64,000 bases of DNA from Leifsonia sp. Root4. Its GTDB lineage: Bacteria; Actinomycetota; Actinomycetes; Actinomycetales; Microbacteriaceae. The stretch is taken from assembly GCF_001425085.1 (NCBI RefSeq), contig NZ_LMDN01000001.1, forward strand, positions 943,100 to 1,007,099. Reading direction: 5' to 3'. Below are positions 7,951 through 28,077 of this stretch, piece after piece. Position numbers and translations under genes: made by a program. Position 1 is the stretch's first letter; each line of letters starts with the position of its first letter. The notes below the pieces were generated by a model. That model saw only the letters and a program-made list of their open reading frames with translations. It was not told the origin of the DNA and searched no databases.

Positions 7951-7966
7951 GTCGAGGAGGACTCTG

Positions 7967-12131: not shown

Positions 12132-12139
12132 TTGCGCAA
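12132..12139. promoter_or_regulatory. Candidate LacI-type operator O3 (TTGCGCAA)
   Basis: TTGCGCAA followed by AA, 82 bp upstream of the first oxidoreductase start (12050). It is identical over ten bases to the box at 7860. Its promoter position links this operon to the LacI-family regulator; the octamer also occurs by chance inside two unrelated genes, so the site is a candidate only. Confidence 0.5.
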
Positions 12140-12188
12140 AACGAGCCCGGCTGCGATCCGCGCGTACTCGCCCCGCGCGCTAGTCGTC

Positions 12189-12797: not shown

Positions 12798-12849
12798 CGA
12801 CTCCCGACCAGCCGAGGAGCCAACGTGTAGGGGTTGGCGACGAATTTTC

Positions 12850-13065: not shown

Positions 13066-13113
13066 GGCTTCCTACTTCCACTCGGCCGTCTAGACACGTT
13101 CGCGATTGAGCGC

Positions 13114-14013: not shown

Positions 14014-14068
14014 AGCTCCCCCAGCCGACGAAACGAGCGAGCGTGATCGGCTCTGGCTCCGGCACCAA

Positions 14069-14090
14069 GAATACCGTTTGGTTGGTTTTA
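14069..14090. promoter_or_regulatory. ARE-like element upstream of the afsA-like gene
   Basis: On the minus strand this reads as half-sites AAAACC and CGGTATTC around AACCAAA, 56 bp before the GTG start. It matches about 14 of 22 positions of the autoregulatory element I recall for butyrolactone receptors (ACATACC...GGTATGT). This would be the expected place for feedback control of the synthase. Confidence 0.45.
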
Positions 14091-14265
14091 AAGGCGCCGC
14101 TCTACGTCCCCATTTCGGGGCAGCATCAGGCACAATGCCAGCTCGACTGTCTCGCGATGAGTGGCGCGCAATCAACGAGAAACTCCGCCAGTCACCCGGG
14201 CCCCTCGGGATATCGGCACGAATCCAGCCGTCGGCGCTTGAACGACGTCGCGAGTAAGTCCAAAG

Positions 14266-14285
14266 AAAACCATTCGTTTGGTTTT
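14266..14285. promoter_or_regulatory. Perfect inverted repeat AAAACCA-N6-TGGTTTT (ARE-like)
   Basis: A 20-bp element with perfect 7-bp arms and the spacer TTCGTT, in the control region shared by the afsA-like gene and the ABC operon. The half-site A-ACC / GGT-T resembles the other ARE-like elements in this region. Confidence 0.5.
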
Positions 14286-14507
14286 AGTCTCCGCACGGCG
14301 TAGCTTGTATTCACCGTGGCTCCGGCTCCGGTCAGAGCCCAGCAACGCCAGATTCCTAGGTTGGGGCGAAGCATTCGGAAAGGGAGTTATGAGCGGTCGT
14401 CTTTGCGATGGGGTGGCATCCGGCAGTTTCAATGCGAGTGATCAACTAGGTCATCCATACACGGATGAACTGGCATCGTTTGTGGTCGAGTCGGAGTTGC
14501 GCGTTCG

Positions 14508-15581
14508 ATGAACGATCGCGCGAAATGGCCTGCTTGGGCCGTGTCTGGAGTCGTTGTACTAGCCGTAGGCGGTGCGCTCGGTTGGGCAGCGTCCGCGGTG
14601 TTCGCCTCGCCCGGTGACGTCCTTGCGCCCACGAAATCCACGTTCGCGACTCTGACCGAAGGAGAGGTGAGTTCCTCGATCACGCTCAACGCAATCGCGA
14701 AGTGGGACCCGGAACCCGTTGGCACCAATCTAGCAGCGGGGACAGTCACATCCGTTTCCGCAGCTGCAGGGAACGAAGTGGGGGCGGGTGCTGTCCTCTA
14801 CTCAGTCGATCTCCGGCCCGTCGTTGTGGCAGAGGGCGACGTGCCAGCGTTCCGTACCCTCGCGCGTGACTCCGTCGGCGCCGATGCCGCACAATTGCAA
14901 GCCTTTCTCGCTGAGCTCGGATTCTATGAAGGAGCGGTCGATGGCGACCTCGGCGTCGAAAGCGAACGAGCCATCGAACAATGGCAGGAATCTCTCGGCA
15001 TCGAGGCGACTGGAGTCGTCAACCGCGGGGACCTGGTGTTCGTGCCTCACCTCCCGGGCCGCGTGGTCATCGACGAGGAAATCGTGTTCCGCGGAGCCAC
15101 CCTCGCCGGTGGAGAGTCAGTCGTATCCGGGCTCGCGGCCGCGCCGAGCTTCAGCATTCCGGCGACGCCCACCCAGGCTGCGCTGATGCCGGAGGGAACG
15201 ACCGTGCTCATCACCTTTCAGGACACAAAATGGCCAGCCGTCGTTTCAGGACAGGCACCGTCTGCAGACGGCAATCAAGTGGATGTGTCGCTAGAAGGAA
15301 TCGACGGCGCCCCGATCTGCGCAGACTCCTGCGCTCTCCTGCCCGCAACGGGTCAGAACCTTCTGACAAGCGAAATCGTGCTGCAAGAACCCGTCTCCGG
15401 AATCATCGCGCCCACCGCCGCCCTCCTCACGAAAGCCGATGGAACAATCAACGTCATCGACGACGAAGGCCGGACCCACCCTGTGACCGTGACAGCAAAC
15501 GCACAAGGCATGTCCGTCATTGACGGCGCGAAGGCCGGGATGCGCGTTCAAGTCCCCGTCTCGGAAGACACCCAGGAATGA
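14508..15581 (+). CDS. Membrane-fusion/adaptor protein with peptidoglycan-binding domain
   Basis: A 357-residue protein with one N-terminal transmembrane helix (about 10-33), a short beta-barrel/lipoyl-like part (for example AGTVTSVSAAAGNEVGAG at 77-94), a PG_binding_1 domain (about 124-166, AQLQAFLAELGFYEGAVDGD), and a C-terminal adaptor part with VSGIIAPTAALL. Such adaptors couple MacB-type ABC permeases to the cell wall in actinobacteria. It overlaps the ATPase gene as ATGA, so the three genes form one operon. Confidence 0.82.
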   Translation: MNDRAKWPAWAVSGVVVLAVGGALGWAASAVFASPGDVLAPTKSTFATLTEGEVSSSITLNAIAKWDPEPVGTNLAAGTVTSVSAAAGNEVGAGAVLYSVDLRPVVVAEGDVPAFRTLARDSVGADAAQLQAFLAELGFYEGAVDGDLGVESERAIEQWQESLGIEATGVVNRGDLVFVPHLPGRVVIDEEIVFRGATLAGGESVVSGLAAAPSFSIPATPTQAALMPEGTTVLITFQDTKWPAVVSGQAPSADGNQVDVSLEGIDGAPICADSCALLPATGQNLLTSEIVLQEPVSGIIAPTAALLTKADGTINVIDDEGRTHPVTVTANAQGMSVIDGAKAGMRVQVPVSEDTQE

Positions 15582-16222
15582 GCGCAGCGCTGCTCAGCAC
15601 CGATGGTCTGTCGTTCTCGTATGAGGCCACGGCGCCACTGCTCCAGTCGTGGTCCGCCGACTTTCAAGCGGGCGAGGTCGTGGCGGTAACGGGCCCGTCT
15701 GGGAGAGGGAAGTCAACGCTTCTATACCTGCTCGGCTTGATGCTGAAGCCGGCTGCGGGACGAGTGCTGCTCGATGGCGAACCGGTTCACGCACTTCCAG
15801 ACCGCACCCGCGCGCATCTTCGCGCGAGCGTGTTCGGGTTCGTATTCCAGGATTCTGCCCTCGATGCCTCCCGAACAGTCATGGACAACATCCTGGAGAC
15901 AGTGCTCTACCGGAACGAATCGCGTGTTGTGGCCGCGAAGCGGGCGGAGGCACTGATGGAGCAGTTCAGCGTGGGCCTGCGCGCGGGTGCGAAACCGGGA
16001 CAAGTCTCGGGCGGGCAAGCGCAGCGCATTGCGTTGTGCCGAGCACTGATCGGTGACCCCCGGATTCTCCTCGCCGACGAGCCGACCGGCAATCTTGACC
16101 CAAGCTCGTCAGACATCGTCATCCAGGCGATGCACGACCAGGCTGCTCGGGGCGCCGCAGTAATCGTCGTCACCCATGACCCCGCCCTAGTCGCGCGCTG
16201 CCATCGCAAGATTGAGCTCTGA
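15578..16222 (+). CDS. ABC transporter ATPase (MacB/LolD type)
   Basis: A 214-residue ATPase with Walker A GPSGRGKST (39-47), Q-loop FVFQDSALD, signature VSGGQAQR and Walker B ILLADEPTGNLD, the last typical of the LolD/MacB/FtsE group. It is coupled to the adaptor by ATGA and followed after 2 bp by the permease. This group powers MacB-like transporters that export peptides or respond to antimicrobial peptides. Confidence 0.9.
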   Translation: MSAALLSTDGLSFSYEATAPLLQSWSADFQAGEVVAVTGPSGRGKSTLLYLLGLMLKPAAGRVLLDGEPVHALPDRTRAHLRASVFGFVFQDSALDASRTVMDNILETVLYRNESRVVAAKRAEALMEQFSVGLRAGAKPGQVSGGQAQRIALCRALIGDPRILLADEPTGNLDPSSSDIVIQAMHDQAARGAAVIVVTHDPALVARCHRKIEL

Positions 16223-16224
16223 TC

Positions 16225-17379
16225 GTGCAGCATCAATCGGCGGCGGCCGACGCGAGGCCTTTCTCCGGCGGGGGCGCCTCGAGGCGATCGATTCTCCCCG
16301 TATTCCGTGAGGCGCTGGCGACAGCGATGTCTGCACCCGTAGCGTCCGCACTAACGGTTGTCATGATCGCCGGCCTCTGCGCGTCCGTGCTGCTGACCAG
16401 CGGCCGAACGGTGGGCGCCGAGAATGCCGTTATCGGCTCGATCGATTCTGCTGGCACACGCTCGATCATTATGCGAGCCGAACCTTCGGCGGAGCTTGAC
16501 TCGTCGGTGCTCGGCCGCATCCGAAACATCGAGGGCATCGAATGGGCCGGCGCGTTCGGCGCCGCGACTGACGTGCAAAACCGCGCGTTCTCCGGCGGCA
16601 CCAAGGTCCCGCTGCGCCTCGCGTGGAGCGAAGACTGGCGTCCGCTCGGCCTCGCACAAGTACCGCCCGGCCCTGGAGACACAGGTTACGGGTCACCGCC
16701 AGCACTCGAAGATTTGGGGCTTGCCGACGGGGTAGGCGGCGTCAAACAAACGAGCGGCGTGGAACTCTCGGTAGTCGGTGGGGTCGACGTGCCAGAGCAT
16801 CTTCGCTTCCTTGAACCAATGCTCGTCGCACCCCAGCCGCTGACCGCGCCGGGCGAGGTCGGAATTCTCGTGGTCGTCGCCGAACGCCCGGATCTCGTAG
16901 CGGCAGTTGCGGCCGCCGTGACAGGTGTGCTCGCGACAAGCGACCCCACGAAGGTGACAGTTTCAACCAGCGAGGGGCTTGCGAGCTTGCGGGCGTTGAT
17001 CGAAGGGCAGCTCGGGACATTCGGGCGAAGTCTCACATTGGGCATCCTGGCGATGACTGCGGTGCTGACATCTGCGATTCTCTATGGCATCGTCATGCTT
17101 CGGCGGAAGGACTTCGGGCGCAGGAGGGCACTCGGCGCATCACAACGGCTCATCGTCGCGCTTCTCCTCATCCAAACGGGGCTGCTCTCACTCATCGGCG
17201 CTGCCCTCGGAACGACGCTCGCCCTGCTCCTCCTCGCGATTAGCAACGACCCGCTGCCCGGTCCAACGTATGTGGTTGGCGTTGCGACGCTTGCCGTGAT
17301 GATCGGCCTCGTAGCAACCCTTGCGCCTGCGCTGAACGCCGCCAGCCGCGAACCGATCACCGAGCTTCGAGTGCCCTGA
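16225..17379 (+). CDS. MacB/FtsX-type ABC permease
   Basis: A 384-residue permease starting with GTG. It has the FtsX layout: one transmembrane helix near 39-60, a large extracytoplasmic domain (about 62-265), then three helices (about 270-293, 309-335, 345-368). The C-terminus EPITELRVP is typical for MacB-like permeases. Together with the adaptor and ATPase it forms a tripartite exporter without an outer-membrane partner. A small secreted peptide gene follows 143 bp downstream, making it a candidate cargo or inducer. Confidence 0.85.
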   Translation: MQHQSAAADARPFSGGGASRRSILPVFREALATAMSAPVASALTVVMIAGLCASVLLTSGRTVGAENAVIGSIDSAGTRSIIMRAEPSAELDSSVLGRIRNIEGIEWAGAFGAATDVQNRAFSGGTKVPLRLAWSEDWRPLGLAQVPPGPGDTGYGSPPALEDLGLADGVGGVKQTSGVELSVVGGVDVPEHLRFLEPMLVAPQPLTAPGEVGILVVVAERPDLVAAVAAAVTGVLATSDPTKVTVSTSEGLASLRALIEGQLGTFGRSLTLGILAMTAVLTSAILYGIVMLRRKDFGRRRALGASQRLIVALLLIQTGLLSLIGAALGTTLALLLLAISNDPLPGPTYVVGVATLAVMIGLVATLAPALNAASREPITELRVP

Positions 17380-17463
17380 CTTCGTCGGACAGGATACGAC
17401 CCCGGACACGATGCTTCACTCGTAGAGGCGTCCGACGGGAATGGTCCATTGCTTGCCTTAAAA

Positions 17464-17485
17464 CAAACCATACGGTAGGTATGTA
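17464..17485. promoter_or_regulatory. ARE-like palindrome upstream of the secreted peptide gene
   Basis: Read on the minus strand, half-sites ACATACC and GGTTTGT flank TACCGTAT. I count 17 of 22 matches to the butyrolactone-receptor element as I remember it. It overlaps a possible promoter (TTGCCT at 17453-17458, 18 bp, TAGGTA at 17477-17482), a position suited to repression that a butyrolactone signal would lift. Confidence 0.5.
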
Positions 17486-17522
17486 TTACCGCAGATCGCG
17501 GTGACGAAGTTGGAGGTCTTCA

Positions 17523-17843
17523 ATGAAGAGGAAACTGGCACTAGGACTCACGGCGGCTGCCGGCGCGGCGCTCATGGTTGCTGGATCTGCACTCCCCGCA
17601 TATGCGGGCGAATGGGCGTGGGGCTCCAAAAATTGCGCCCCGTCGAGCCAGTACGTCTACACGGGCAGCGGAGGGAGCGGAAACGTCACCCATGCGCACA
17701 AGATCAGCGGGTCCTACTCGACCGTGACATTTGCCAATGGCACGGTCAACCAGACGAGGGCTAAGACCTTCTGGGTCGGCATGACTGAAGGGGCTAGCGT
17801 CGCAGGCGCATCAGCCAGCTGGGGCACCTACTACTGCGGATAG
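17523..17843 (+). CDS. Small secreted Cys-paired protein, bacteriocin-like candidate
   Basis: A 106-residue precursor with a clear Sec signal peptide (cleavage likely after AYA, residue 28). The mature 78 residues start GEWAWGSKNC and end WGTYYCG, with only two cysteines (38 and 105), so one disulfide joining the two ends is likely. The composition is rich in Gly, Ser, Thr, Tyr and Trp. A good ribosome site (GGAGG) precedes it. Context: downstream of a MacB-like exporter and upstream of lipoproteins, an arrangement resembling lactococcin-972-type loci, but I do not see that family's motif clearly. Function is unproven; it could also be an envelope protein. Confidence 0.7.
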   Translation: MKRKLALGLTAAAGAALMVAGSALPAYAGEWAWGSKNCAPSSQYVYTGSGGSGNVTHAHKISGSYSTVTFANGTVNQTRAKTFWVGMTEGASVAGASASWGTYYCG

Positions 17844-17855
17844 CGCGGTCACCTG

Positions 17856-17882
17856 GGGGCGTCGGTTTCGCGCCGGCGCCCC
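17856..17882 (+). terminator. Hairpin between secreted peptide and lipoprotein genes
   Basis: A 10-bp stem (GGGGCGTCGG with CCGGCGCCCC, one G-T pair) and a 7-base loop, 13 bp after the peptide stop. No strong T run follows. It may be a partial terminator or processing stop that makes the peptide mRNA more abundant than the downstream lipoprotein message. Confidence 0.5.
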
Positions 17883-17899
17883 TCCGACTAAGGACAACA

Positions 17900-18532
17900 A
17901 TGAGAATCAGACCCTTGCCGATTGCAGCTGCGATCGCGATCGCGGTGAGTGGGCTTCTGCTTTCCGGATGCAGCGCACCCACGCCAGCCCGGACCCCATC
18001 TCCAAAGCCCGCCGCTTTGTCTGAAAGCGCGGCCGACCAGCTGACCGCGGCGGCCATCGAAGACGCATGGGTGCGGGCGGCGCTACCGGACGACAAGCGA
18101 CCCGACGTCGAGCTTGTCCGCCTGGTCTCCTTGCAGGAGTGGCCTGAAGCAGTCGCACAGTGTCTGCGAGACGCCGGATGGAACGCGACGTCTGAAGACG
18201 GCGGAGTTGGTCTCGTTGGAGTCACAGAAGCCCAGAGGGAGCCATCTGCACTGGCTCAATACACTTGCGAGGCGCAGTACCCCGTCGATCCAAAGTACCT
18301 TTCGCAGCTAACCGACTCGCAGTTGGAATACCTGTACGTGTACTACACGACAACGCTCCGCGACTGCCTGATCGATGCCGGGTACACACCCTCGGACCCG
18401 CCTTCGCGAGAGAAGTTCATCGAGAGCTATTACAGGACTGGAGCGTGGAGCCCATACTCGGAGGTACCGGTGACGGCCGTCGCCGATCTTGACGAGAAAT
18501 GTCCCCAAGTCCCAGAAGGATTGTGGGGATGA
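17900..18532 (+). CDS. Lipoprotein, paralogue of the next gene
   Basis: A 210-residue lipoprotein with lipobox LLLSGC (Cys 24), then a Pro-rich linker and a soluble domain containing four further cysteines (QCLRDAGW, YTCEAQY, LRDCLIDAGY, DEKCPQVPE). It shares the pattern CL-x-AG-W...R-DCL-x-x-G-x..PP...GAWSPY...CPQ with the next lipoprotein, so the two are paralogues. It follows the secreted peptide by 56 bp. An immunity or cargo-binding role outside the membrane is possible but is only inferred from position. Confidence 0.7.
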   Translation: MRIRPLPIAAAIAIAVSGLLLSGCSAPTPARTPSPKPAALSESAADQLTAAAIEDAWVRAALPDDKRPDVELVRLVSLQEWPEAVAQCLRDAGWNATSEDGGVGLVGVTEAQREPSALAQYTCEAQYPVDPKYLSQLTDSQLEYLYVYYTTTLRDCLIDAGYTPSDPPSREKFIESYYRTGAWSPYSEVPVTAVADLDEKCPQVPEGLWG

Positions 18533-18576
18533 GGCGTGAAGCACCCGCCAAACCAACACGGTTGGATCTCGCGAGG

Positions 18577-18603
18577 ATGAACGTCGATCGGGTTCGCGCT
18601 TGA
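18577..18603 (+). other. Possible 8-codon leader ORF overlapping a TTG start
   Basis: ATG at 18577 opens an eight-codon frame (MNVDRVRA) that stops with TGA at 18601-18603. That TGA overlaps the TTG (18600) used by the next lipoprotein gene. Such overlap could couple translation of a gene that lacks its own clear Shine-Dalgarno sequence. Confidence 0.35.
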
Positions 18604-19112
18604 CACTCAGAGATCGGCCGAGGCGAATCGGCGCATACGTTACCGTCGGCGTCCTATTTGGGGTCGCCGGGTTGCTCACGGGTTGCACCGCCGTTTCTAA
18701 CAGCACTGGCAGCGATTCCGACTTCAGCGAGAATTACCCAGCATGCATGAGCGACCTCGGCTGGGATTCCGTCCGGGACGCCGACGGCGGCGTAATCACA
18801 AGCATTCCCTCTGAACAGCGGTCCGCCTATACCGCAGCCCGCGATCAGTGCTTGGAGCTCATTGGTGCCAGCGATCGCCCGGTCCCAACCGCAGGGCAGC
18901 TGAAGCGCCTGTATGAGGCCCAACTCGATACAAGAGACTGCCTCCTTCGTGAAGGCTTCAGCCTTCCTGAGCCACCATCTGAGCAAGTGTTCCTTGAATC
19001 AGTCGGGGCGTGGAGCCCATATATCGCCCTTCCGGACACGGCGCTTTCATCTGGATTTGATGAGCTAATGAAGCGCTGTCCGCAGCCATCGGCGGAGTCA
19101 CTCGCTGGATAG
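18600..19112 (+). CDS. Lipoprotein, paralogue of the preceding gene
   Basis: A 170-residue lipoprotein with TTG start, lipobox LLTGC (Cys 29) and a soluble domain with the shared pattern YPACMSDLGW, TRDCLLREGF, PPSEQVFLESVGAWSPY and KRCPQPS. It is shorter than its neighbour because it lacks the long linker. No ATG lies in a suitable place upstream in frame; the TTG is chosen because it gives a complete signal peptide. Probably part of the same transcription unit as the secreted peptide. Confidence 0.65.
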   Translation: MTLRDRPRRIGAYVTVGVLFGVAGLLTGCTAVSNSTGSDSDFSENYPACMSDLGWDSVRDADGGVITSIPSEQRSAYTAARDQCLELIGASDRPVPTAGQLKRLYEAQLDTRDCLLREGFSLPEPPSEQVFLESVGAWSPYIALPDTALSSGFDELMKRCPQPSAESLAG

Positions 19113-19225
19113 CGACCTCCAGCTCTAGAGACGCAGTCGGACGAACGCGACCCAGTTCTGAGCGCCCACACCCTTGTCGCAGGAACCGCCACCACGCCCT
19201 CTCGTTTCGCCGCATACAGATTGGT

Positions 19226-19510
19226 ATGCACCCGTCAGTAACAACACCCGATCTGAAAACAACCCTTACGCGGGCTTGGTGGCGTGCGCTCGAATTTGTT
19301 CCAGCGTGCGTTGCCGTGGTGGCGGTCGCGAGGGTGGCCGTGATCTTGCTCGCGACCTGGCCCGAGCCGTTCCACCCCTTTCTCGCGATGGGGCTGGGTT
19401 TGGTCGCTGTCGCAGCATCAGTGGTTGCGACGGTTGTGGCCATTCGGGCGTGGAGTATCTGTACTGCCTCGCTCGTCGGAGCGCTCGCGATGCTGGCGCT
19501 CTTTTGTTAG
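19226..19510 (+). CDS. Small membrane protein (94 aa)
   Basis: A 94-residue protein with three hydrophobic segments (about 24-43, 50-72, 76-93) and a short cytoplasmic N-terminus. I do not recognise it. It follows the lipoproteins on the same strand, and its 3' end overlaps the convergent membrane-protein gene by 4 bp. Confidence 0.5.
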   Translation: MHPSVTTPDLKTTLTRAWWRALEFVPACVAVVAVARVAVILLATWPEPFHPFLAMGLGLVAVAASVVATVVAIRAWSICTASLVGALAMLALFC

Positions 19511-20199
19511 GGCAGACGTCTGTAAAAGACGAGCCCCGAGTCGCCCCAAGGAGTCATGCGCCTTGAGTAAAGCTTCGCAACGCGCTCGGTACTGGCCGAC
19601 GCGAACACGATCGCTCCCGCCGGAAGCGCGGCGCTGGCGAATGTCGCCAGTGCTAGCGACTGACCAACCTCTGAGCCGTCAGAGACAAGCCCTTCCACAG
19701 TCCATCCGCTTCCCAGCGCCCGTTTCATTTCCTTGAAGTCGCGCAGAATGGCACGCGGCGGAATGATCGTTTTTGCCGCCATCGTCGCGAGCACCATCCA
19801 TATCGCGGCGAGCGAGAATATGATTGCACCAAGCACGAGAGCTCCCACCTGGTCAAACACCATCACCATGGTGAGGAGTCCCACCACGAGAACGGCCAGC
19901 ACCCCGGGAGCGGCCAACGCCGCTGCACGCCGAACCCGAGCCCGCTTGCTTCCGTTGGGAGCGAGCAACGCTACCGCAGTGCTCCGACCGGCGACCCACT
20001 GCTCTTTCGCTGCGCATTGGCCCACTACGGCCATGGCGAGGAGCGGCCACACCAGAGCGACCCGCCACCCGCGGAAGCGCGGTTTCGCGTTGGTTGCGAA
20101 CGCGCGTGACGAGACCGTTGCAATCCATCCCACGTCGCGAAAAGTCGCGAGCCTTGCCGTGTCGCGAACGGTGGGGCTGCTCTCGAGTCGTGTAGTCAT
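19507..20199 (-). CDS. Hypothetical membrane protein
   Basis: A 230-residue protein with transmembrane segments near residues 46-62, 93-115 and 118-142. Its soluble C-terminal part has ASTERVAKLYSRRMTPWGDSGLVFYRRLP, which loosely recalls the end of a GNAT acetyltransferase fold, but I see no acetyl-CoA loop. No function can be assigned. Confidence 0.5.
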   Translation of the reverse strand: MTTRLESSPTVRDTARLATFRDVGWIATVSSRAFATNAKPRFRGWRVALVWPLLAMAVVGQCAAKEQWVAGRSTAVALLAPNGSKRARVRRAAALAAPGVLAVLVVGLLTMVMVFDQVGALVLGAIIFSLAAIWMVLATMAAKTIIPPRAILRDFKEMKRALGSGWTVEGLVSDGSEVGQSLALATFASAALPAGAIVFASASTERVAKLYSRRMTPWGDSGLVFYRRLP

Positions 20200-20337
20200 T
20201 GGACGCTGTCATTCGGTTCTGCTCACAATGAGCGCCCCGAAGGGGGTAGTTGGTCGCACTCTCGTCGCAACTCAAGACGGTGTTCACAGCGCGAAGAGCG
20301 CCGGCCAGCAGCAAGCAAAATGTTGGGCGACAGACAG

Positions 20338-20372
20338 AGGCGGGCCGCCATCGAACCGATGGCGGCCCGCCT
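20338..20372 (-). terminator. Rho-independent-like terminator of the DUF3892 gene
   Basis: A perfect 16-bp stem (AGGCGGGCCGCCATCG and complement) with loop AAC, starting 12 bp past the DUF3892 stop in the direction of transcription. There is no long T run. Confidence 0.6.
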
Positions 20373-20384
20373 GCGTTTCGCGGC

Positions 20385-20666
20385 CTAGAAGAGCGGCAGC
20401 GACAAGAGGTTGTTGTTGTACTTGCCATCCGCGTGGGTGCGCAGGTGCGGCGTGACGCCCGGCGTGCGAACTACCGCCACCTCAACCCGTGAGGGTCCGG
20501 TGCCCACGTGTGCGGAAGTTCCGGCCGCGTCCAGCCAGGCGACCATCCCTGCCTTGGTGTTGTTGCCGATCGTTCCGAGGGAGTCCACCCATTTGAACTC
20601 GGAGAGCGTCTCGTGGGTGCGGACAGTTCCGCTGTAGCGGACGTTGGCAATACGACGTGTGGTCAT
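20385..20666 (-). CDS. DUF3892-domain protein
   Basis: A 93-residue protein matching the DUF3892 pattern: KWVDSLGTIGNNTKAGMVAWLDA in the middle, VEVAVVRTPGVTPHLRTHADG and the C-terminal NNNLLSLPLF. These small proteins are common near mobile elements and toxin-related genes, but their role is unknown. It has its own strong terminator and a purine-rich ribosome site (AAAGG), so it is probably a single-gene unit. Confidence 0.75.
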   Translation of the reverse strand: MTTRRIANVRYSGTVRTHETLSEFKWVDSLGTIGNNTKAGMVAWLDAAGTSAHVGTGPSRVEVAVVRTPGVTPHLRTHADGKYNNNLLSLPLF

Positions 20667-21170
20667 TTTGCTAGGTACCTTTCATTGTTTGCAGCCCATT
20701 CGGTAAGCCACGTTCGGTTGTTGGTCTAGGACTCCGCTGAGTCGCTTGGGTGAGCGAGCGGCTTTGGATCGGAATCGAGAGAAGCTCTCGTCGACTGCCC
20801 GCACTTGGAACCCGCTGGCTTGCGGGTCTGCATGCTGGCCATTCAATACCGACCGTCCTGTTTCAAAGATACCGGGCTTTCATGGTTTCGGTGGGGATGC
20901 TCGCGCAGGGCGAACAGAATCTGTGCCCGCCGCGGCCTTAGGCAATAGGTGAGTCGGCATCGGCGCTCCACTGGCAGCTGCTTCCAGTTGCCGCATATGA
21001 CTAGGTGGCCGAGCATGATTCCGTGGCCAGAAGACAATGTGACAGAAAGGCTGCCCAGTGACTGCATATGAATCCTTGATCACCATGGCGATCGGGGGGC
21101 TGCCCCTGTTTCTTGCGATCGCCACGACTCCGCCACCACCACGCCGCCGCCGCCGCCGGGGAGAGCCCAA
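20667..21170. other. Gene-poor region without convincing coding sequence
   Basis: About 500 bp. Short frames on both strands (for example 20750-20941 plus and 20880-21170 minus) have low-complexity or unconvincing translations. A Pro/Arg-rich GC stretch (21120-21160) breaks it up. It holds the promoter of the DUF3892 gene and otherwise looks like decayed DNA. Confidence 0.45.
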
Positions 21171-21674
21171 TCAGCTTGTGCGGCGAAAGTGAAAGAACAG
21201 AGCAGCGACCCCGCAGAGGACGAGTAGGACGAACCCAGTGACGGTCATTGGCACCGAAGCAGCTATGCGCGTGATCGCATCATTGAGTCCGCCAAGCAGG
21301 GCGCCCGCCACGAGCGCAGCTGCGCCGCCGAGGATGACAGACCGCTGCTCATAGGCGTCGAGACCGTGAATCGCAAGCGCCACCGCGCCAGCAAGACACA
21401 GCACAATCACAATCCATGTGGCGGCCTGCACCTCGACGTGACGCATCATCGCGCCTGGGGCGAAGAAGAGTGTGAGCGCTGAAGCAATCAGCACAACCCA
21501 CTTCACTGTGCTGCGCACCCAAGTGCCTGTGCTGGCGGCAGCATCCGCCCACTCACCGAGCCCTTCCGCGAACCAGAAAACGCCCAAGGCGATCGCAACA
21601 AGCCCGAGCGCCACCATCCAATGAACCAAGGCCCAATCTGACTGAAAGGCGACTGCAATGGCTTCGGTGTGCAT
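21171..21674 (-). CDS. Hypothetical integral membrane protein (167 aa)
   Basis: Five hydrophobic helices (about residues 15-35, 57-72, 84-103, 112-130, 139-160) and a short basic C-terminus FHFRRTS. I do not recognise the family. It lies alone on the minus strand next to the second small secreted peptide gene, which is transcribed divergently. Confidence 0.6.
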   Translation of the reverse strand: MHTEAIAVAFQSDWALVHWMVALGLVAIALGVFWFAEGLGEWADAAASTGTWVRSTVKWVVLIASALTLFFAPGAMMRHVEVQAATWIVIVLCLAGAVALAIHGLDAYEQRSVILGGAAALVAGALLGGLNDAITRIAASVPMTVTGFVLLVLCGVAALFFHFRRTS

Positions 21675-21740
21675 GGTGATCTCCTGGTCTTTTCGCTCCA
21701 GAAGCTACTCTCGGCCGGCGGCGGAGCCACGTTAGCATTC

Positions 21741-21762
21741 ACATACCAATTGACCCGTTTTT
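21741..21762. promoter_or_regulatory. ARE-like element upstream of the second secreted peptide gene
   Basis: Begins ACATACCAA, matching the first nine bases of the butyrolactone-receptor element as I recall it, with a weaker right half GTTTTT. I count 15 of 22 matches. It overlaps a possible -35 TTGACC (21750-21755) and lies about 70 bp before the peptide start. Confidence 0.4.
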
Positions 21763-21832
21763 TTGAGTGATCGCGCTAGCATGAGCGCCGGGGGCCGCTT
21801 CGGCTCTGCTCGAAGATAAAACTGGGGGAATC

Positions 21833-22078
21833 ATGAACAAATCTGTGCGCCGTTTTGCTGTCACCGCTATGAGTGGGCTATTGATCGCGGGGAGCGTAGC
21901 GTTCGGCGGGGTAGTTCCTGCCCATGCAGAGGGCAACGTGGCAGAGTACTTCAGTACGTACGAAAAGTGTGCGACTCGTCGGTCACTTATCAGCACCTTG
22001 CAGGGGTACACCGTGCTGTCCTATTGCGCACGAACCAGTGACGGTCGGTATGCGTTTCAGTACCGCACGCGGGTGTAA
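21833..22078 (+). CDS. Small secreted basic peptide with Cys pair
   Basis: An 81-residue precursor with a Sec signal peptide (cleavage likely after AHA, residue 32). The mature 49 residues have two cysteines (EKCATRR and SYCARTS), six arginines and one lysine, and a net positive charge of about +3. A clear ribosome site (GGGGGA) precedes the ATG. A terminator hairpin follows. Size, charge and secretion fit an antimicrobial or signal peptide, but no family is recognised. Confidence 0.65.
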   Translation: MNKSVRRFAVTAMSGLLIAGSVAFGGVVPAHAEGNVAEYFSTYEKCATRRSLISTLQGYTVLSYCARTSDGRYAFQYRTRV

Positions 22079-22103
22079 CCGCACGATCCGCTAATACGAC
22101 CGC

Positions 22104-22142
22104 GCCGCGGGAGGGTCGGGACTACCCGGGCTCTCCCGCGGC
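22104..22142 (+). terminator. Terminator hairpin after the second secreted peptide
   Basis: 10-bp stem GCCGCGGGAG with CTCCCGCGGC, starting 26 bp after the stop. It overlaps the 3' end of the convergent lipoprotein gene. Confidence 0.55.
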
Positions 22143-22547
22143 TTCAAGCGCCACTACAAAGTTGCCCACCGAAATGCGGTCTAGCTGCACTGAGCCCACC
22201 GATTCCGGGATGGGCACTTCATAGGTCACGGCGCGTTCAGCAGAGTTGCATGGGAATTCTCGCTGGTGCGGAGTCAGGAGCAATTCAAGTTGATCCGAGT
22301 CGTTTGCGCGAATGCTGGTCGCCACCCCAAAGCAACCTGACATGGCCCTCATCGTGTAAGAGAGGGTCTCTCCGTCGTCGATCAGAACGGCATACCCCTC
22401 GGTCGGCAGGTCGGCAATTCCGCCATGAAAGCTGTCCGGGAACCCCTCATACTCGCGAGTCGCGACGCTCTCTGGAGCCTGGGTACAACCAGCCAGCATC
22501 GTGGCGGCGATACCTGCAATACCAGCAGCAATAAGTTTGCGGTTCAC
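22122..22547 (-). CDS. Hypothetical lipoprotein
   Basis: A 141-residue lipoprotein starting at GTG (22547) with basic N-terminus, hydrophobic core and lipobox MLAGC (Cys 20). AAGGA lies 7 bases before the GTG. The soluble domain has GFPDSFHGGIADLPTEGYAVLIDDG, SGCFGV and a second cysteine in REFPCNS. A longer frame upstream lacks signal-peptide character and was not used. Unknown function. Confidence 0.65.
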   Translation of the reverse strand: MNRKLIAAGIAGIAATMLAGCTQAPESVATREYEGFPDSFHGGIADLPTEGYAVLIDDGETLSYTMRAMSGCFGVATSIRANDSDQLELLLTPHQREFPCNSAERAVTYEVPIPESVGSVQLDRISVGNFVVALEAAGEPG

Positions 22548-22821
22548 TCCTGAATCCTTGCATACTGCAAACGCGCGAGGTGAATCGCGCCGATGGCACC
22601 CCTGCGATTGCGACCAAGAGTCACGAGGCACCGTCCGTTCCCGGCATGTGCGGGGTGCGGCGCAGCGATCGGGTCGCTGCCACTTTTCCCGCAGTCGCCA
22701 CGACCCCCGCGACCGTAACCACGTTAGCTGGCCCAATCAGGCTGCGCAGCGACACTGAGGAAGCAGGACGGCGGCGCCGAAGAGGACGAGAAGGCGAACT
22801 CGTCCCGGCAACGTTCAGCGC

Positions 22822-22983
22822 TTAGTTACCGCTGTAGGTCAAGTCATCGCGCAGCTTGATCCGCACGTTCGCGCCCACAGGAAGGGTTCGCGGCAGGAGC
22901 TGGACGCTAACGGCATGCTCCGACACGACTGTCGCCGTCCGCAATCCAGGCAAACCGATACGCCCAGGCGAGGTGAGCGTCAT
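22822..22983 (-). CDS. Possible small protein (53 aa)
   Basis: The frame from MTLTSPGRIGLPG to KLRDDLTYSGN reads as a compact beta-rich peptide. It lies 49 bp downstream of the HTH gene on the same strand. There is no family match from memory and the short length leaves doubt. Confidence 0.35.
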   Translation of the reverse strand: MTLTSPGRIGLPGLRTATVVSEHAVSVQLLPRTLPVGANVRIKLRDDLTYSGN

Positions 22984-23032
22984 GCTCGTCGAATCACTCA
23001 AATCACACCTCGAAGCTAACGGTGATACCGCT

Positions 23033-23335
23033 CTAGTCCGCCGGCTGCTCGTCTGACGAAGGCTTTTGGCGCCCGGGCCAGAGGTCCGCGTCAAGAAAGA
23101 GCTCCAGCTTCGCGATCGTCTCCATGTCGGGCCACGTCCGGCCTTCGAGAATGGCGACGAGCGTCACATGGCTGAGATCAGCGGCGCGGGCTGCGGCGCG
23201 AATGCTGCGCTCCCCGATCGCTTCGCGCAGGTTGAGAGTAAAGCGCCTCGCGACTTCACCGACCGGGTCTTCAGACTTCACCGTCGGCCACGAGCGAACG
23301 ATCTCGTTCGGCTTTCTGCGGGCGGTCCGGGGCAT
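23033..23335 (-). CDS. XRE-like helix-turn-helix regulator (module 1)
   Basis: A 100-residue protein with a helix-turn-helix at about residues 34-78 (LREAIGERSIRAAARAADLSHVTLVAILEGRTWPDMETIAKLE). It is divergent from the first tyrosine-recombinase-like gene, separated by 236 bp. The same HTH/recombinase pairing is repeated immediately downstream. It probably controls the neighbouring gene. Confidence 0.75.
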   Translation of the reverse strand: MPRTARRKPNEIVRSWPTVKSEDPVGEVARRFTLNLREAIGERSIRAAARAADLSHVTLVAILEGRTWPDMETIAKLELFLDADLWPGRQKPSSDEQPAD

Positions 23336-23571
23336 GCCTCAAGACTAGAGGCGAGCGCGCCGTCAGCCTGAATGGGCGCGCGATGTACGCCAGTCCAATT
23401 GGTCATTCACACCAAGATACGGTGTTGATAGTATTAAACACAAGCGGGCGGTTGATCTCCCGAATTGGTTGCCACCGCACACGACCGGACTGCCCTCTGG
23501 GCGTGGCTGCCGCGGCTCGAGTTTCGATTCGAGGACACACAGCCAGTTGGGCGCAACTTTGCGAGGCGACT

Positions 23572-24444
23572 ATGGCTGACTACCTTCCCCGACTTCCCGT
23601 TCAGCTCTGGCTTCAGCTCAAGCCTTTCGTCGATGGCTCGGTCGTTGACGCGGTCGCGCTCACTCCATATCGAGACGTCGAGCTTTACGCCGCCGTTACG
23701 CCGCTCGCGGCCTGGATGGTGACTCAAGCCGGGCTCCCGCTTGATCGCGAAGTTGCGTTCGACCCGCACACCATCGACAGGTTCTGCATGGAGGGCTTGG
23801 TTCGCTACACAAAGGCCGGGCGCGGGACGATGCGCTCTCGACTCCGCCGGGTTAGCGAAGTGCTACTGCCGGGCCTTGCGGAGCCGCCCCGCGAACGGGC
23901 GTTTGGGCCGTCAGTGCCGAACGCGCCCTACTCCGAAGCGCAGCAGATCATGCTGAGCGCGTGGGCGCGGTCGTTGCCTTCGGCCCGGAGCACTCAGGCG
24001 CAGCGACTGCTCAGCCTGGGGCTCGGCGCCGGCCTCATCGGTAGCGAGATCGGGCGGGCTCATATCGGCGACATCAAACTGGCCGCGAGCGGAGTGACAG
24101 TCGCGGTTAGGGGTCCGCGCGCCAGGACGGTCCCGGTCCTCGACGAGTGGAGTGCGGCGCTCATTCTCGCGCAGAAATCCGAATCACCGGACACATGGCT
24201 GTTCCGAGAAGGACGCGATGCGCTAAATCACAACCTCGTCACTGACTTCGTCACTCGGCATCCGGCGCAGGTCCCGCTTCAGGCACGCAAGATGCGAGCG
24301 ACGTGGCTCGTGTATCACCTCAACTCCGGCGCCCCGCTGATCGCGTTACTCAAAGCCGCGGGGCTCGAGAACGCCGAAGGTTTGGACCGACTGTTGCAAT
24401 TCGTTGACCCCGACGCCGCGACAAATCACCCGCTGTCGTTCTGA
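23572..24444 (+). CDS. Tyrosine-recombinase-like protein, probably catalytically inactive
   Basis: A 290-residue protein (start MADYLPRLPVQ; the longer frame from 23383 has no supporting sequence character). The C-terminal half keeps the integrase layout: LLSLGLGAGLIGSEIGRAHIGDI, a strand with RARTVPVLDEW, then RKMRATWLVYHLNSGAPLIALLKAAGL aligned to the usual LRHT...LLGH box. Key residues are lost: the first catalytic Arg is Ile (GLIGSEI), the RH pair is RA (R242), and the position 32 residues after R242, where the nucleophilic Tyr should be, is Leu. It resembles the next recombinase-like gene in the same positions. Confidence 0.65.
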   Translation: MADYLPRLPVQLWLQLKPFVDGSVVDAVALTPYRDVELYAAVTPLAAWMVTQAGLPLDREVAFDPHTIDRFCMEGLVRYTKAGRGTMRSRLRRVSEVLLPGLAEPPRERAFGPSVPNAPYSEAQQIMLSAWARSLPSARSTQAQRLLSLGLGAGLIGSEIGRAHIGDIKLAASGVTVAVRGPRARTVPVLDEWSAALILAQKSESPDTWLFREGRDALNHNLVTDFVTRHPAQVPLQARKMRATWLVYHLNSGAPLIALLKAAGLENAEGLDRLLQFVDPDAATNHPLSF

Positions 24445-24447
24445 CGG

Positions 24448-24831
24448 TCAGCGCACCGTGTCGTTGGCAGTTCGGCGCTGGTTCATCGAGCCTGCGAGCA
24501 CATCTGCGATCTCCTGGAGCATGGTCGTACCGAGCTCGTCGTCAATCAAGACGACGTCCTCAAATCGCAGGACGATCTCGCCCCGGAGTAGCCGACCAAG
24601 TCGAAGATGGTTCATCCCCATGCCATCAGCAAGCTCCATGATGGTCGTGCCGTTCACTGCGACAGCATTGCGCACGCGGAGCGAAAGCGCGTGGTGGACC
24701 TGCGCGACTCGAAGGTTGACGTAATCGCCGGTGCTGAGCCCTTCCGCAGATCGCCAGCGAATCTGAGATGTGGTGCCAAAATCCTTGGCGGAGAGTGCGT
24801 AGCTGCGCGGTACGAAACGAGGGGCGGTCAC
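24448..24831 (-). CDS. XRE-like helix-turn-helix protein (module 2)
   Basis: A 127-residue protein starting at GTG. The HTH region is about residues 45-95 (HHALSLRVRNAVAVNGTTIMELADGMGMNHLRLGRLLRGEI). It is convergent with module-1 recombinase (3 bp gap) and divergent from module-2 recombinase. Its layout echoes the module-1 HTH gene, which suggests a duplicated pair. Confidence 0.65.
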   Translation of the reverse strand: MTAPRFVPRSYALSAKDFGTTSQIRWRSAEGLSTGDYVNLRVAQVHHALSLRVRNAVAVNGTTIMELADGMGMNHLRLGRLLRGEIVLRFEDVVLIDDELGTTMLQEIADVLAGSMNQRRTANDTVR

Positions 24832-24918
24832 AGAACGAGCCTAGGCCGAAATCTCCATGTATCCCAAAGGGGCACATTGCCTATTGGGGCACCTCGCGTT
24901 CGCATCTAACAGTGCGTG

Positions 24919-25914
24919 ATGATCCCCGCGCCTGAAGTCGCCCCCACCGCCGTCCGTGTCGACATTGGCACGCCTGTCGAATACAATGACCACTCTGAGG
25001 TTACCCGCCATGTCGTCGCGAACTATGTCTCCCGTTCGGCTGGTGCGCACTGGGACGCGATCAGGTCTTTCGTGGTTGCCAGCGTGAATCAGCTCGAACC
25101 ACAATCGCCAGCCTCGATCAGGTTTCACCTGACCGTCGCCACTCGCTTTGCCCTCTGGCTCCGGACCAGTACTGGCGCAAGCCTCGACGAGCCCGCCGAC
25201 TACTGGACCTTTCACCAAGTCCAACGTTTCGCCGCCATGGAGCTCGGGACAGGCACAAGCGCAAGCTACCGAGCGGCAGTGTTGAGGAGACTGAACACGT
25301 TTGTGCGACGCTGCGGAGACGGTGAAGACTCCCGGAGGGCTATTCCGGTCGCTCCGCTCCCACCGCTGCTTCCGTACACCTCACGCGAACAAGCAGCGTT
25401 TTTGGCCGCTGCCCATGCGCGCGGGTCGGAGCACCGTCGCTCTAACAATCTTGCATTCGTCGCGCTTGGCCTGGGTGCCGGGCTGCGCGCCGTGGAACTT
25501 GTCGCAGTCCGCGTTGAAGACATCAGCGATGACTGCACGGACATGAACATCCATGTCCGCGCGGGCTCATCACCCCGCATCGTCCCGATGCGCCGCGAAT
25601 GGTGCGAAACCCTTCGCCAGGCCCTTGCCAGCCGCGCCTCCGAAGACTTCGTCATCATCGGCCACCGATCGGCAAAGCCGGCCCCGCTCCTTTCTACGCT
25701 CACCACAAACGGCCCGAAGGCTCCTCGCCCGACTGCATCACGGATGCGGGCGACCTGGATCATCGGTCATCTCACCTGCGGGCTTCGCATCGACCTCGTG
25801 CTGGAGATTGCGGGTCTACACAAGCTCTCGGCACTCGTTCCATATGTAGCCAGCCTCCCGGCGGTCTCACCCATTGATCGCGAGCTCGCGCACGGGAGCT
25901 TGGCGAATGACTGA
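24919..25914 (+). CDS. Tyrosine-recombinase-like protein (module 2)
   Basis: A 331-residue integrase-like protein. The N-terminal half (residues about 20-120) looks like a SAM-like core-binding domain. The catalytic half has VALGLGAGLRAVELVAVRVEDI with the first Arg (R190), SPRIVPMRREW, and RMRATWIIGHLTCGLRIDLVLEIAGLHK. R277 is the second Arg, the usual His after it is Ala, and Y309 lies 32 residues after R277, the spacing of the nucleophile in active enzymes. It may be active although divergent. A GTG at 24916 is an equal start candidate. Its stop overlaps the transposase start by 8 bp. Confidence 0.65.
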   Translation: MIPAPEVAPTAVRVDIGTPVEYNDHSEVTRHVVANYVSRSAGAHWDAIRSFVVASVNQLEPQSPASIRFHLTVATRFALWLRTSTGASLDEPADYWTFHQVQRFAAMELGTGTSASYRAAVLRRLNTFVRRCGDGEDSRRAIPVAPLPPLLPYTSREQAAFLAAAHARGSEHRRSNNLAFVALGLGAGLRAVELVAVRVEDISDDCTDMNIHVRAGSSPRIVPMRREWCETLRQALASRASEDFVIIGHRSAKPAPLLSTLTTNGPKAPRPTASRMRATWIIGHLTCGLRIDLVLEIAGLHKLSALVPYVASLPAVSPIDRELAHGSLAND

Positions 25915-27709
25915 TCTCGTCGAAGGGTTCGAGCTCGATCTCGCCGAGCGCCTCACGGATGCGGAACTCGCGACTTTCTCCGGCAAGACTTCTGTGTTCC
26001 CGCACTCTGCCGTGCTCACCGTCGACAAGTGCATCCAGATGACAGGCCTGCTTGGTCGGGTCCTCGAGTGGCGTGCGGAAGATCGGTTGGGAAAACACCC
26101 GGGCGGGCCAGCCCCGTACGTGAACGATCACGCAATGCTTGTCGTGATGTTACTGCTGGCTCGAGAGCATGCACCACTAAACATCACGGAAATGGCGAAC
26201 GTTCTACACCGGCGCCTTTCTCCGGAATCGCGCGAGTTCCTCAGGATTCCAAACTCGCTTCCGCCGCGCCAAGGAGGTGGCGGCACCGAGAGGAAGAACT
26301 GGTTCAACCAGGCGTACAACGCGTTCCACCGCCTGGTCGACACCATGGACCCACATCTCGACACAAAGAAGACGCGGCGATACCTCCTCACGAACGAGCA
26401 GCGCGAGAAGATCTTCACGGGCCGCGACAGAAACATGATGCGGCGCCGCAAAGAACGGCTCGACCTGTTCTCAGAGAAGTTCGTGCAGATGACATTCACG
26501 ATGCAGCCACGACGCCTCCGGAGGTTGCAGCGTCGGGCTAATCTTTCCGTCGACCAGACCCCGATTCCAGTCTTCAGCAAGAAGGGCACCAAACGCGACA
26601 AGCAAGCTAAGGGCATGGAAGAGCGACTTGTCGCCGAGATTGATGCCGCCTGGTATGTCAAGGGTGAAGAGTACATCTGGGGATTCGCCGCAAACTTCAT
26701 CATTAACACCGCAGACACTCCAGGGACGAAGCCCAACTACCCGATCACCATTCGCGCATTCAACCTCAGCAAGCCGGGTGAGCAAATAGGTGAAGAAGCT
26801 GTCAAGCTCGCGCGACAGCTCGTACAGGCCGGGCATGTGCCGGGGCGTTTCACCGCCGACCGTGGATACTTCCCAAACGAGAAGGTGTCCAACCTTCATC
26901 GTCCGCTCCGGGACATGGAATTCGACCTCGTGTTTGATATGAAGCGCACCGAGTTCGGAAAACAAGACGGTGGGCAAAACGGCACGATCTATGTCGAGGG
27001 CGAGCACCTCTGCCCGGGCACCCCGAAAGACCTCATCAACCTTTCCGTTCGCGCGGAGGCGAAAGAATTCGATGAGCACACATACAGAACCCTCATCGAC
27101 GAACGAGCACGATACGCAGCGCGCAACAAGGAGAAGCCTGACGCGGACGGCAAAGTGAAGAAGATGTGCCCGGCACTTGGTCCCCAAGCAAAGATCGAGT
27201 GCCCACTGCGAGAAATCCACCCCGAGTCCTCAAAGAAGACGAAGCCTCGAGTGCTGAAGAAGAACCTCCCGGAGAAGCCGCCGGCGATCTGCTGCCAATC
27301 TTCAGCCGTGTTCGAGGAGAACGACGACACGATCCGCTTTGCGCAAAGGTATCGCTTCCAATCTTCGGAATGGGCCCAGATCTACAAGTTCGATCGAAAT
27401 GCCGTCGAGGGCATGAACGGGTATATCAAGAACGATGCCCACGAGTCGCTCTCGAACCCACAACGTCGTTCTGCGCGCGGAATGGCCGCGCAACAAGTTC
27501 TCATCACAATGCTCGTCATCTCGGCGAACATGCGGAAGCTACAGTCGTTCCTCGCGGAGGAGGGGCGCGAGATTTTCCAGAAGATTGAGAGGCGCTACCC
27601 CGAGTCGCGTCGACGGGACCGGAAGGCACACAGCAAGTACAAGCGCACTTGGGGACCGGCACCAGACGTGGTCATCGTTGAAGGCAGATCCGACCCTCTG
27701 AGAACATAG
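25907..27709 (+). CDS. DDE transposase with Cys-containing insertion
   Basis: A 600-residue RNase-H-fold transposase. Catalytic triad candidates are D216 (SVDQTPIP), D318 (TADRGYFP) and E501 (NAVEGMNGYIK). Between D318 and E501 lies an insertion with cysteines in HLCPGT, KKMCPALGP, KIECPL and AICCQ, which could bind zinc. An N-terminal helical domain (about 60-200) and a basic tail (YPESRRRDRKAHSKYKR) complete it. I chose the ATG at 25907, inside the upstream gene's last codons, for translational coupling. No terminal inverted repeats were found by eye. It resembles large actinobacterial IS transposases but I cannot name the IS family. Confidence 0.8.
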   Translation: MTDLVEGFELDLAERLTDAELATFSGKTSVFPHSAVLTVDKCIQMTGLLGRVLEWRAEDRLGKHPGGPAPYVNDHAMLVVMLLLAREHAPLNITEMANVLHRRLSPESREFLRIPNSLPPRQGGGGTERKNWFNQAYNAFHRLVDTMDPHLDTKKTRRYLLTNEQREKIFTGRDRNMMRRRKERLDLFSEKFVQMTFTMQPRRLRRLQRRANLSVDQTPIPVFSKKGTKRDKQAKGMEERLVAEIDAAWYVKGEEYIWGFAANFIINTADTPGTKPNYPITIRAFNLSKPGEQIGEEAVKLARQLVQAGHVPGRFTADRGYFPNEKVSNLHRPLRDMEFDLVFDMKRTEFGKQDGGQNGTIYVEGEHLCPGTPKDLINLSVRAEAKEFDEHTYRTLIDERARYAARNKEKPDADGKVKKMCPALGPQAKIECPLREIHPESSKKTKPRVLKKNLPEKPPAICCQSSAVFEENDDTIRFAQRYRFQSSEWAQIYKFDRNAVEGMNGYIKNDAHESLSNPQRRSARGMAAQQVLITMLVISANMRKLQSFLAEEGREIFQKIERRYPESRRRDRKAHSKYKRTWGPAPDVVIVEGRSDPLRT

Positions 27710-27901
27710 GCCTGCCTCCAGGCCACCCAACTGATTCATTCGCGCCGAACAGGGCGCTATTTGTGCTGCCCCCGATCGACAGATTCACACCCGGGTCAAG
27801 GACAGACGGCGCCAGCCTGCCGTAAAACTGGCGCTTGGGCCCAGCAGCGAGGTCCGTACAGGACTTGGCCGGTGAAGAAAACCGATAACGGTCAAGAAAC
27901 G

Positions 27902-27938
27902 AAGAAGAGGGCCTCCGCAATGCGGAGGCCCTCTTCTT
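27902..27938. terminator. Strong bidirectional terminator
   Basis: A perfect 17-bp stem (AAGAAGAGGGCCTCCGC and complement) around loop AAT, followed by TT on the plus strand and preceded by AA-rich sequence. It can end the transposase transcript on plus and the tRNA-Ser transcript on minus. Confidence 0.8.
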
Positions 27939-27987
27939 TTGATCCCAGTTCTTAGAACGAAATCGACCAGACCCTAGAAGGGCCCAA

Positions 27988-28077
27988 TGGCGGTACCGGT
28001 GGGATTTGAACCCACGGTGGACTTTCACCCACACAACTTTTCGAGAGTTGCACCTTCGGCCGCTCGGACACGGTACC
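27988..28077 (-). tRNA. tRNA-Ser(CGA)
   Basis: Minus-strand sequence folds as a class II tRNA of 90 nt including encoded CCA: acceptor GGTACCG/CGGTACC, anticodon loop CTCGAAA with anticodon CGA, a long variable arm, and T loop TTCAAAT. It sits at the edge of the accessory region. Confidence 0.93.

Follow-up and report, generated by a model that had tools for sequence, protein, structure and literature searches.

Within a 64,000-nucleotide stretch of the Leifsonia sp. Root4 genome (assembly GCF_001425085.1, contig NZ_LMDN01000001.1, positions 943,100 to 1,007,099; hereafter the window), five genes at positions 23033 to 27709 appear to form the module of a large, cargo-carrying transposon. We consider it probable, with room for real doubt, that this transposon inserts at a fixed position beside tRNA or transfer-messenger RNA (tmRNA) genes, with a DDE transposase as its catalyst and two degenerate tyrosine recombinases, R1 and R2, acting as a target selector or synapsis factor. 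The evidence, all of it computational, consists of the gene set, a protein fold, the pattern of catalytic residues, the position relative to tRNA genes, the element ends, a target duplication, and one empty site. The module comprises the following genes.

23033..23335, minus strand: HTH1, a small Xre-like helix-turn-helix (HTH) protein, divergent from R1 (Pfam HTH_3, E value 5.8e-5)
23572..24444, plus strand (longest open reading frame [ORF] from 23383): R1, a tyrosine-recombinase-like protein, assigned from homologues and residue pattern
24448..24831, minus strand: HTH2, a second HTH-like protein, divergent from R2 (weak match to HTH_31, E 0.012, under its cut-off)
24916..25914, plus strand: R2, a tyrosine-recombinase-fold protein (Pfam Phage_integrase, E 9.6e-7)
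25907..27709, plus strand: the DDE transposase, 600 amino acids (NF033551 [IS1182], E 3e-4; conserved triad)

A preliminary description of this DNA had reported two tandem HTH/recombinase-like units, the second overlapping the transposase gene by 8 bp; all five genes are indeed present, and the overlap lies at 25907-25914. R1 and R2 are mutually homologous. A profile check of both recombinases, which the same description had proposed, identified R2 as a Phage_integrase protein and gave no Pfam match for R1 at an E value of ≤1, with XerC reaching merely E 0.17. The DDE protein is weakly named: its matches to IS1182 and to PF13751 (E 0.05) are both under cut-off, and its score against NF033551 is 19.8 bits where the cut-off is 270. 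Four of 10 members of the DDE family match NF033551 at an E value of ≤0.01 (best, 1.6e-6); the resemblance to the profile is weak and C-terminal. The TnsA, TnsB, TnsC, and TniQ families gave no match to the five module proteins (Pfam and NCBIfam, E ≤ 1). The HTH proteins are probably regulators of the module.

The element as a whole is delimited most directly by C2, a second copy in the same genome (G000; here, G labels denote genomes and L labels denote fetched loci). The C2 insertion is 19,320 bp long, and its empty site is found in the relative G003, which is 97% identical to C2 over the 231 bp up to the tRNA gene and 85% identical over 8.7 kb beyond the insertion. The sequence ACAGTG occurs once at the empty site of G003 and on both sides of the C2 insertion, whose ends read GGGCAGTTCTCGAAAC and GGTCCGTTCGCCAAAC. 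In view of this empty site, with the whole gene set inside one delimited insertion, we rejected the idea that the transposase is a separate insertion.

When the end rule of C2 is carried over to the window, it predicts an element of 70,018 bp that is flanked by a duplicated AATGGC and has short imperfect inverted repeats. Its features in and near the window are as follows.

1..27985: the part of the element inside the window; the probable far end lies at window position -42032 (G000:C1:901067)
27902..27938: a terminator-like hairpin just inside the element end (18-bp inverted repeat)
27941..27985, minus strand: the tRNA-side element end, with GGGCCC and a pair of ~12-bp semi-palindromic repeats spaced 22 bp apart
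27986..27991: the 6-bp target duplication AATGGC (GCCATT on the tRNA strand, from tRNA position 73)
27988..28077, minus strand: the target tRNA-Ser(CGA) gene, left intact (ARAGORN)

The 3' end of the tRNA-Ser(CGA) gene, which the preliminary description does not mention, faces the 3' end of the DDE gene at a distance of 279 bp. Synteny with relatives of the same genus ends at the 3' end of this tRNA gene, at 27988 for three of them and at 27987 for a fourth. A second copy of AATGGC, at G000:C1:901061-901066, adjoins the probable far end, which is also favored by an exact 10-mer, TCTAAGAACT, common to both ends of the window element.

Searches of 99 relative genomes (own genome included) matched the DDE protein in 18, R2 in 21 (weak matches counted), and R1 in 11, and 20 regions were fetched from relatives. 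A first set of 10 loci, the window together with L061-L067, L069, and L070, was defined by a recombinase-like gene directly before the DDE gene, and that gene lies immediately 5' in all 10. A second recombinase-like gene stands further upstream in seven (the window and L061-L066, where it is ~4 kb off in L066); in L067 another one lies ~28 kb away (L068), and L069 and L070 have one. Homologues of HTH1 were found in five of the nine other first-set loci and in both Streptomyces plasmid loci examined, and those of HTH2 in G039, G044, L184, and L186, whereas tblastn found no HTH gene in the remaining four of nine (L061-L063 and L070). Thus, of the recurring gene set expected by the preliminary description, the recombinase-DDE pair is co-located across genera, but the HTH genes are inconstant. 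Its proposal that the genes make up one mobile module stands, as evidenced by this linkage and by the presence of the whole set in one delimited insertion, C2; neither of the contrary outcomes that it had named came true, for the genes are not mostly found apart and the transposase did not arrive separately.

In all 10 first-set loci, a convergent tRNA gene has its 3' end 175 to 283 bp from that of the DDE gene, and the targets are of six kinds: Ser(CGA) and Leu(CAG) in three loci each, and Ser(GCT), Pro(CGG), Pro(GGG), and Met in one each. A wider scan covered 45 saved loci (L136-L180), mostly best matches, of which eight repeat first-set loci and some are near-copies (L157-L159 with L064; L138 with L139). 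Convergent tRNA or tmRNA genes were present in 39 of the 45, or 31 of 37 without the eight repeats, the nearest lying 101 to 356 bp from the end of the DDE match; the targets here include a tmRNA gene as well as tRNA genes of the Tyr, Gly, and Ala types. A rough estimate (~50 tRNA genes in 3.5 Mb) puts the chance rate of such linkage at ~1% or less. Loci with the same tRNA label group together on both trees, that of R2 and that of the DDE protein: each requires 13 changes against shuffled means of 20.8 and 20.9, respectively, with 0 of 200 shuffles as low; this test used 33 of 35 labelled loci, since two had no DDE row.

A separate observation concerns L142 (G388:C12), where a convergent tmRNA gene faces the DDE match at a distance of 101 bp; tmRNA may therefore be a target. 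Insertion beside tmRNA appears to be rare in comparison with insertion beside tRNA.

An exact 6-bp duplication with inverted-repeat ends was found in 8 of 10 cases: the window, C2, G004, G010, G039, G008, G005, and G051 (the last with a 1-bp shift), where equal flanking 6 bp was a search condition for the seven delimited elements other than C2. In a control that gives real and fake ends equal tries, fake ends as good as the real ones numbered 0/1492 for G004, 0/1488 for G008, 1/1497 for G010, 1/1488 for G051, 5/1491 for G039, 20/1491 for C2, 58/1486 for G005, and 62/1487 for the window. An earlier, uneven control, which gave real ends two tries and fake ends one, had yielded 57/1984 for the window, 13/1986 for C2, 0/1990 for G004, 1/1987 for G010, 1/1987 for G039, 0/1987 for G008, 38/1989 for G005, and 1/1987 for G051. 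Seven of the eight delimited elements have, as we read them, a duplication whose first base is tRNA position 73; in G051, the start is ambiguous by one base.

Of 42 tRNA-side ends, 38 have GG within positions 2 to 8 past the tRNA, a count without a control, and 18 contain GTTCnCGAAAC with ≤2 mismatches (mean of 0.9 and maximum of 5 in shuffles that preserved single-base composition only). Several of these ends have a second copy of that type 12 or ~22 bp inward. At the place of the hairpin, inverted repeats of at least 13 bp occur in 5 of the 10 first-set loci.

The catalytic residues of the two protein types have fared very differently. In the window, R1 lacks ArgI, the HxxR histidine, and the tyrosine while retaining ArgII, and R2 retains ArgI, ArgII, and a tyrosine at canonical spacing, just as the preliminary description had read them; both histidines of R2 are gone, however. 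An alignment of 45 recombinase rows (7 R1-type and 38 adjoining a DDE gene; partial matches dropped) shows the HxxR histidine in 0 of 45 (one gap), the LGH histidine in 0 of 45, ArgI in 13, and the tyrosine in the aligned column in 26; the full R-H-R-Y set is present in no row, and ArgI and tyrosine are absent from all seven R1-type rows. The C2 and G004 elements, in which the ends and the duplication are clear, have no tyrosine at the catalytic position of R1 or R2; each R2 carries one 12 residues beyond it. In contrast, the DDE triad (D216, D318, and E501) is invariant in 10 aligned homologues, and among 39 rows, the first aspartate is present in 36 of 36 (3 gaps), the second in 38 of 39, and the glutamate in 39 of 39. 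The AlphaFold model of R2 (mean predicted local distance difference test score [pLDDT], 79) has Cre, XerA, XerH, and Tn1549 Int as its best PDB matches (best E value, 2.7e-7; template modelling scores of 0.34 to 0.48 among the 50 matches listed); as modelled, R2 is of the Cre/Xer fold.

In the mechanism that we propose, the DDE transposase would cut at the short inverted-repeat ends and join them to the target with a 6-bp stagger that begins at tRNA position 73, so that the tRNA would remain intact and 6 bp would be duplicated. R1 and R2, apparently descended from tyrosine recombinases and presumably no longer a standard working pair, would act as DNA-binding target selectors or synapsis factors that guide the transposase to the 3' portion of the tRNA gene, and the HTH proteins would regulate the module. 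From the conservation of the triad as opposed to the loss of recombinase residues, we infer that the DDE protein is probably the catalyst. A precedent is TnsF of Tn6022, an inactivated tyrosine recombinase by which a Tn7-like transposon is targeted, as described in the available text of PMC10293859; by analogy with it, R1 and R2 most likely serve targeting, end binding, or synapsis. The preliminary description had instead envisaged the joint use of two chemistries, which finds no support here, given recombinases without a full catalytic site (R1 keeping the least and R2 a part) beside a conserved DDE triad. The equal 6-bp flanks of C2 are as expected from staggered DDE cutting; nevertheless, the residue pattern is the stronger argument because equal flanks could also arise from a recombinase that requires matching crossover sequences.

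Several observations weigh against this interpretation. ArgII is retained in 43 of the 45 recombinase rows, and among the 38 R2-type rows, the tyrosine is present in 30 if a one-residue shift is allowed, ArgI in 13, and ArgI, ArgII, and tyrosine together in 11, window R2 included. R2-type proteins are thus degenerate in part, and since these residues are partly kept, some catalytic function is conceivable in the clades that keep them. The DDE model is poor (mean pLDDT, 53.5), with no structure match at an E value of ≤0.001; an RNase H chain at E 0.23 is too weak to count as evidence. By itself, the repeat score gives the window far end weak backing (62 of 1487 fake ends as good), and the far ends of the window element and of G005 are accordingly probable. 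For G035 and G044, the search located no far end, the best scores being at chance level (controls as good in 1441/1489 and 1474/1489), and the sequence directly past the window far end has no match in relatives. No tRNA or tmRNA gene lies within ~1.5 kb at L145-L148, L161, and L168. Two Streptomyces plasmid copies have no tRNA within ~17.5 kb, and therefore the variant on plasmids may use a different target or no longer have one. Finally, the R2 and DDE trees accommodate the target label equally well and hence give no indication of which of the two proteins chooses the tRNA gene.

Some of these points feed an alternative, to our minds unlikely, in which R1 and R2, or R2 alone, do recombine. 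The element would then be a tyrosine-recombinase island at a tRNA 3' end, with its repeats as core sites that flank a 6-bp crossover and with an accessory role for the DDE protein. The 3' ends of tRNA genes are classic targets of tyrosine recombinases, and both the Cre/Xer fold predicted for R2 and the 11 R2-type rows with ArgI, ArgII, and tyrosine fit this idea. So do the SE elements, which have two recombinases and likewise carry imperfect inverted-repeat ends and a 6-bp crossover, according to the available text of PMC9345347; their flanks, however, are described there as unequal, whereas both flanks of C2 equal the empty site. The loss of both histidines from all rows and of ArgI from most, set against a near-invariant DDE triad, argues against recombination, as does the absence of a catalytic-position tyrosine from both proteins of C2 and G004. 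We also rejected a plain tRNA island bounded by a long repeat of the tRNA 3' end: in 107 kb scanned, only the 6-bp duplication was convincing; the other best candidates matched at 17/26 and 10/11 bases.

A further possibility, which we judge about equally unlikely, is that the DDE protein recognizes the tRNA and that R1 and R2 act on the element, binding the ~12-bp end repeats for synapse building or cointegrate resolution. The paired semi-palindromic repeats at the tRNA-side end and the equal fit of the tRNA label to both trees would suit such a division of labor, and in the Tn3 family, TnpI and TnpS/TnpT resolve cointegrates. However, cointegrates could be resolved only by an active recombinase, and the full residue set is missing from every row; moreover, the constancy of tRNA position 73 across isotypes would seem to resemble the target preference of a tyrosine recombinase. 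Lastly, tRNA genes are general island hot spots beside which a transposase could have landed next to an older integrase island, yet such a coincidence is very hard to credit given a gene order that is constant across genera, Streptomyces plasmids included, with genes mostly touching or overlapping, and given one whole element, C2, that is bracketed by duplications and has an empty site.

Genes of this module occur outside Leifsonia as well. DDE profile matches occurred in 16 of 396 phylum genomes and 75 of 398 family genomes (own genome and fragments counted); a search of a phage collection gave no match. Relatives bearing homologues include G004 (corresponding to Microterricola pindariensis, Microbacteriaceae), Cryobacterium levicorallinum, Terrimesophilobacter mesophilus, Leifsonia aquatica, an Aeromicrobium metagenome-assembled genome, and six Streptomyces plasmids; both the recombinase-like gene and the DDE gene carry the annotation "hypothetical protein" in the two plasmid records that were inspected. 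Among the fetched regions, L071 is an R1 fragment close to a tRNA-Met gene, and nine others (L072-L080) are DDE fragments, with a tRNA nearby in L072, L073, and L075-L078 and none seen in L074, L079, and L080.

Some loci hold more than one insertion. At one tRNA in G039 (C3), L064 and L119-L121 form tandem insertions of 15,957 bp and ~17.9 kb, and at another in G004 (C30), L062 and L115 form tandem insertions of 16,637 bp and ~4.7 kb; the same 6-bp duplication recurs at every junction, and therefore a resident copy seems not to block a newcomer. In G516, three same-strand DDE matches spaced 25 to 27 kb apart (C1:2669844, 2696870, and 2721810) are a possible tandem array. Just past the probable far end of the window element, G000:C1:901018-901066 contains a ~12-bp semi-palindrome pair and a terminator-like hairpin and resembles the tRNA-side end of another element, minus the GGG start. 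L108 (G002, 263-3731) is a ~3.4-kb insertion at a tRNA-Pro gene with a conserved tRNA-side end, perhaps a remnant or a non-autonomous copy; it has no module gene at an E value of ≤0.01, and its far end was not found. G001 was considered as an empty site for G004, but its flank match resumes only ~3.8 kb from the tRNA; it therefore has an insert of its own there and was not counted.

The cargo is varied. A scan of 9 of the 11 non-module ORFs in a rough gene list of C2 identified HsdM, a Fic protein, a DEAD helicase, two helicase-associated-domain proteins, and a GAF domain just under its cut-off, with three scanned ORFs having no match. In the window, the scan took in 17 ORFs from the interval 2877 to 22736 and revealed an oligopeptide-type ABC transporter, a solute-binding protein, a LacI regulator, two MocA oxidoreductases, ThuA, an AfsA-like protein, a peptidoglycan-binding protein, and an ABC ATPase with an FtsX permease; no match was obtained for seven. 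In addition, a type I-E CRISPR-Cas operon stands upstream of the HTH/recombinase/DDE trio on a plasmid of Streptomyces sp. NBC_00057 (L187, 1-3806) and is perhaps cargo.

Taken more broadly, we lean, by a narrow measure, to the view that these elements represent a widespread, undescribed actinobacterial family in which one or two retired tyrosine recombinases aim a DDE transposase at tRNA 3' ends, a TnsF-like arrangement outside Tn7, with clades favoring different tRNA or tmRNA genes. If this is true, tyrosine recombinases have been turned into targeting proteins for DDE transposases outside Tn7-like elements too. Such a family could account for actinobacterial tRNA-linked islands without a recognizable integrase, and natural site-specific insertion of ~16 to 70 kb beside unbroken tRNA genes would be a useful delivery principle.

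Several known systems share single traits with the present one. Tn4430 and Tn5401 (TnpI) and Tn4651 (TnpS/TnpT), of the Tn3 family, also combine a DDE transposase with a tyrosine recombinase, but their resolvases are active, their transposase is of the Tn3 type, and they do not target tRNA genes. Casposons have inverted repeats and a target duplication, and some lie beside tRNA genes, as here; they differ in their Cas1 integrase and family B polymerase. The IS1182 family is linked to our DDE protein by the weak C-terminal match to NF033551, whereas the present protein falls far under the 270-bit cut-off and belongs to large elements that carry cargo, encode recombinase-like partners, and target tRNA genes.

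The available text of PMC9345347 describes SE-6945 and SE-6283 as having two tyrosine-recombinase genes, imperfect inverted-repeat ends, a 6-bp spacer, and varied cargo; in these elements, however, both recombinases keep R-H-R-Y, no DDE transposase is present, the targets are other ones, and the 6-bp flanks are unequal on the two sides, unlike those of C2. Tsy transposons, as far as covered in the available text of PMC10293859, resemble our module in bringing together a tyrosine recombinase, an HTH gene, and a TnsF-like gene at one site, but their recombinase catalytic activities are essential, and that text names no DDE transposase for Tsy.

The preliminary description had known of no described element with this design. 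In the part of the PMC literature that we searched, no title or abstract opening describes such an element, but a related design, TnsF with a Tn7-like transposon, is in print. In Tn6022, as the available text of PMC10293859 presents it, a transposon is served by an inactivated tyrosine-recombinase domain (a serving role that we propose here by analogy for R1 and for the partly degenerate R2) and, as here, inserts at a fixed chromosomal site and generates a target duplication. TnsF, however, carries zinc fingers at its N terminus, acts together with TnsA/B/C and TniQ, and directs insertion to comM (PMC10293859), whereas the present module pairs one or two bare Cre/Xer-like proteins with an IS1182-like transposase and has tRNA genes as its targets.

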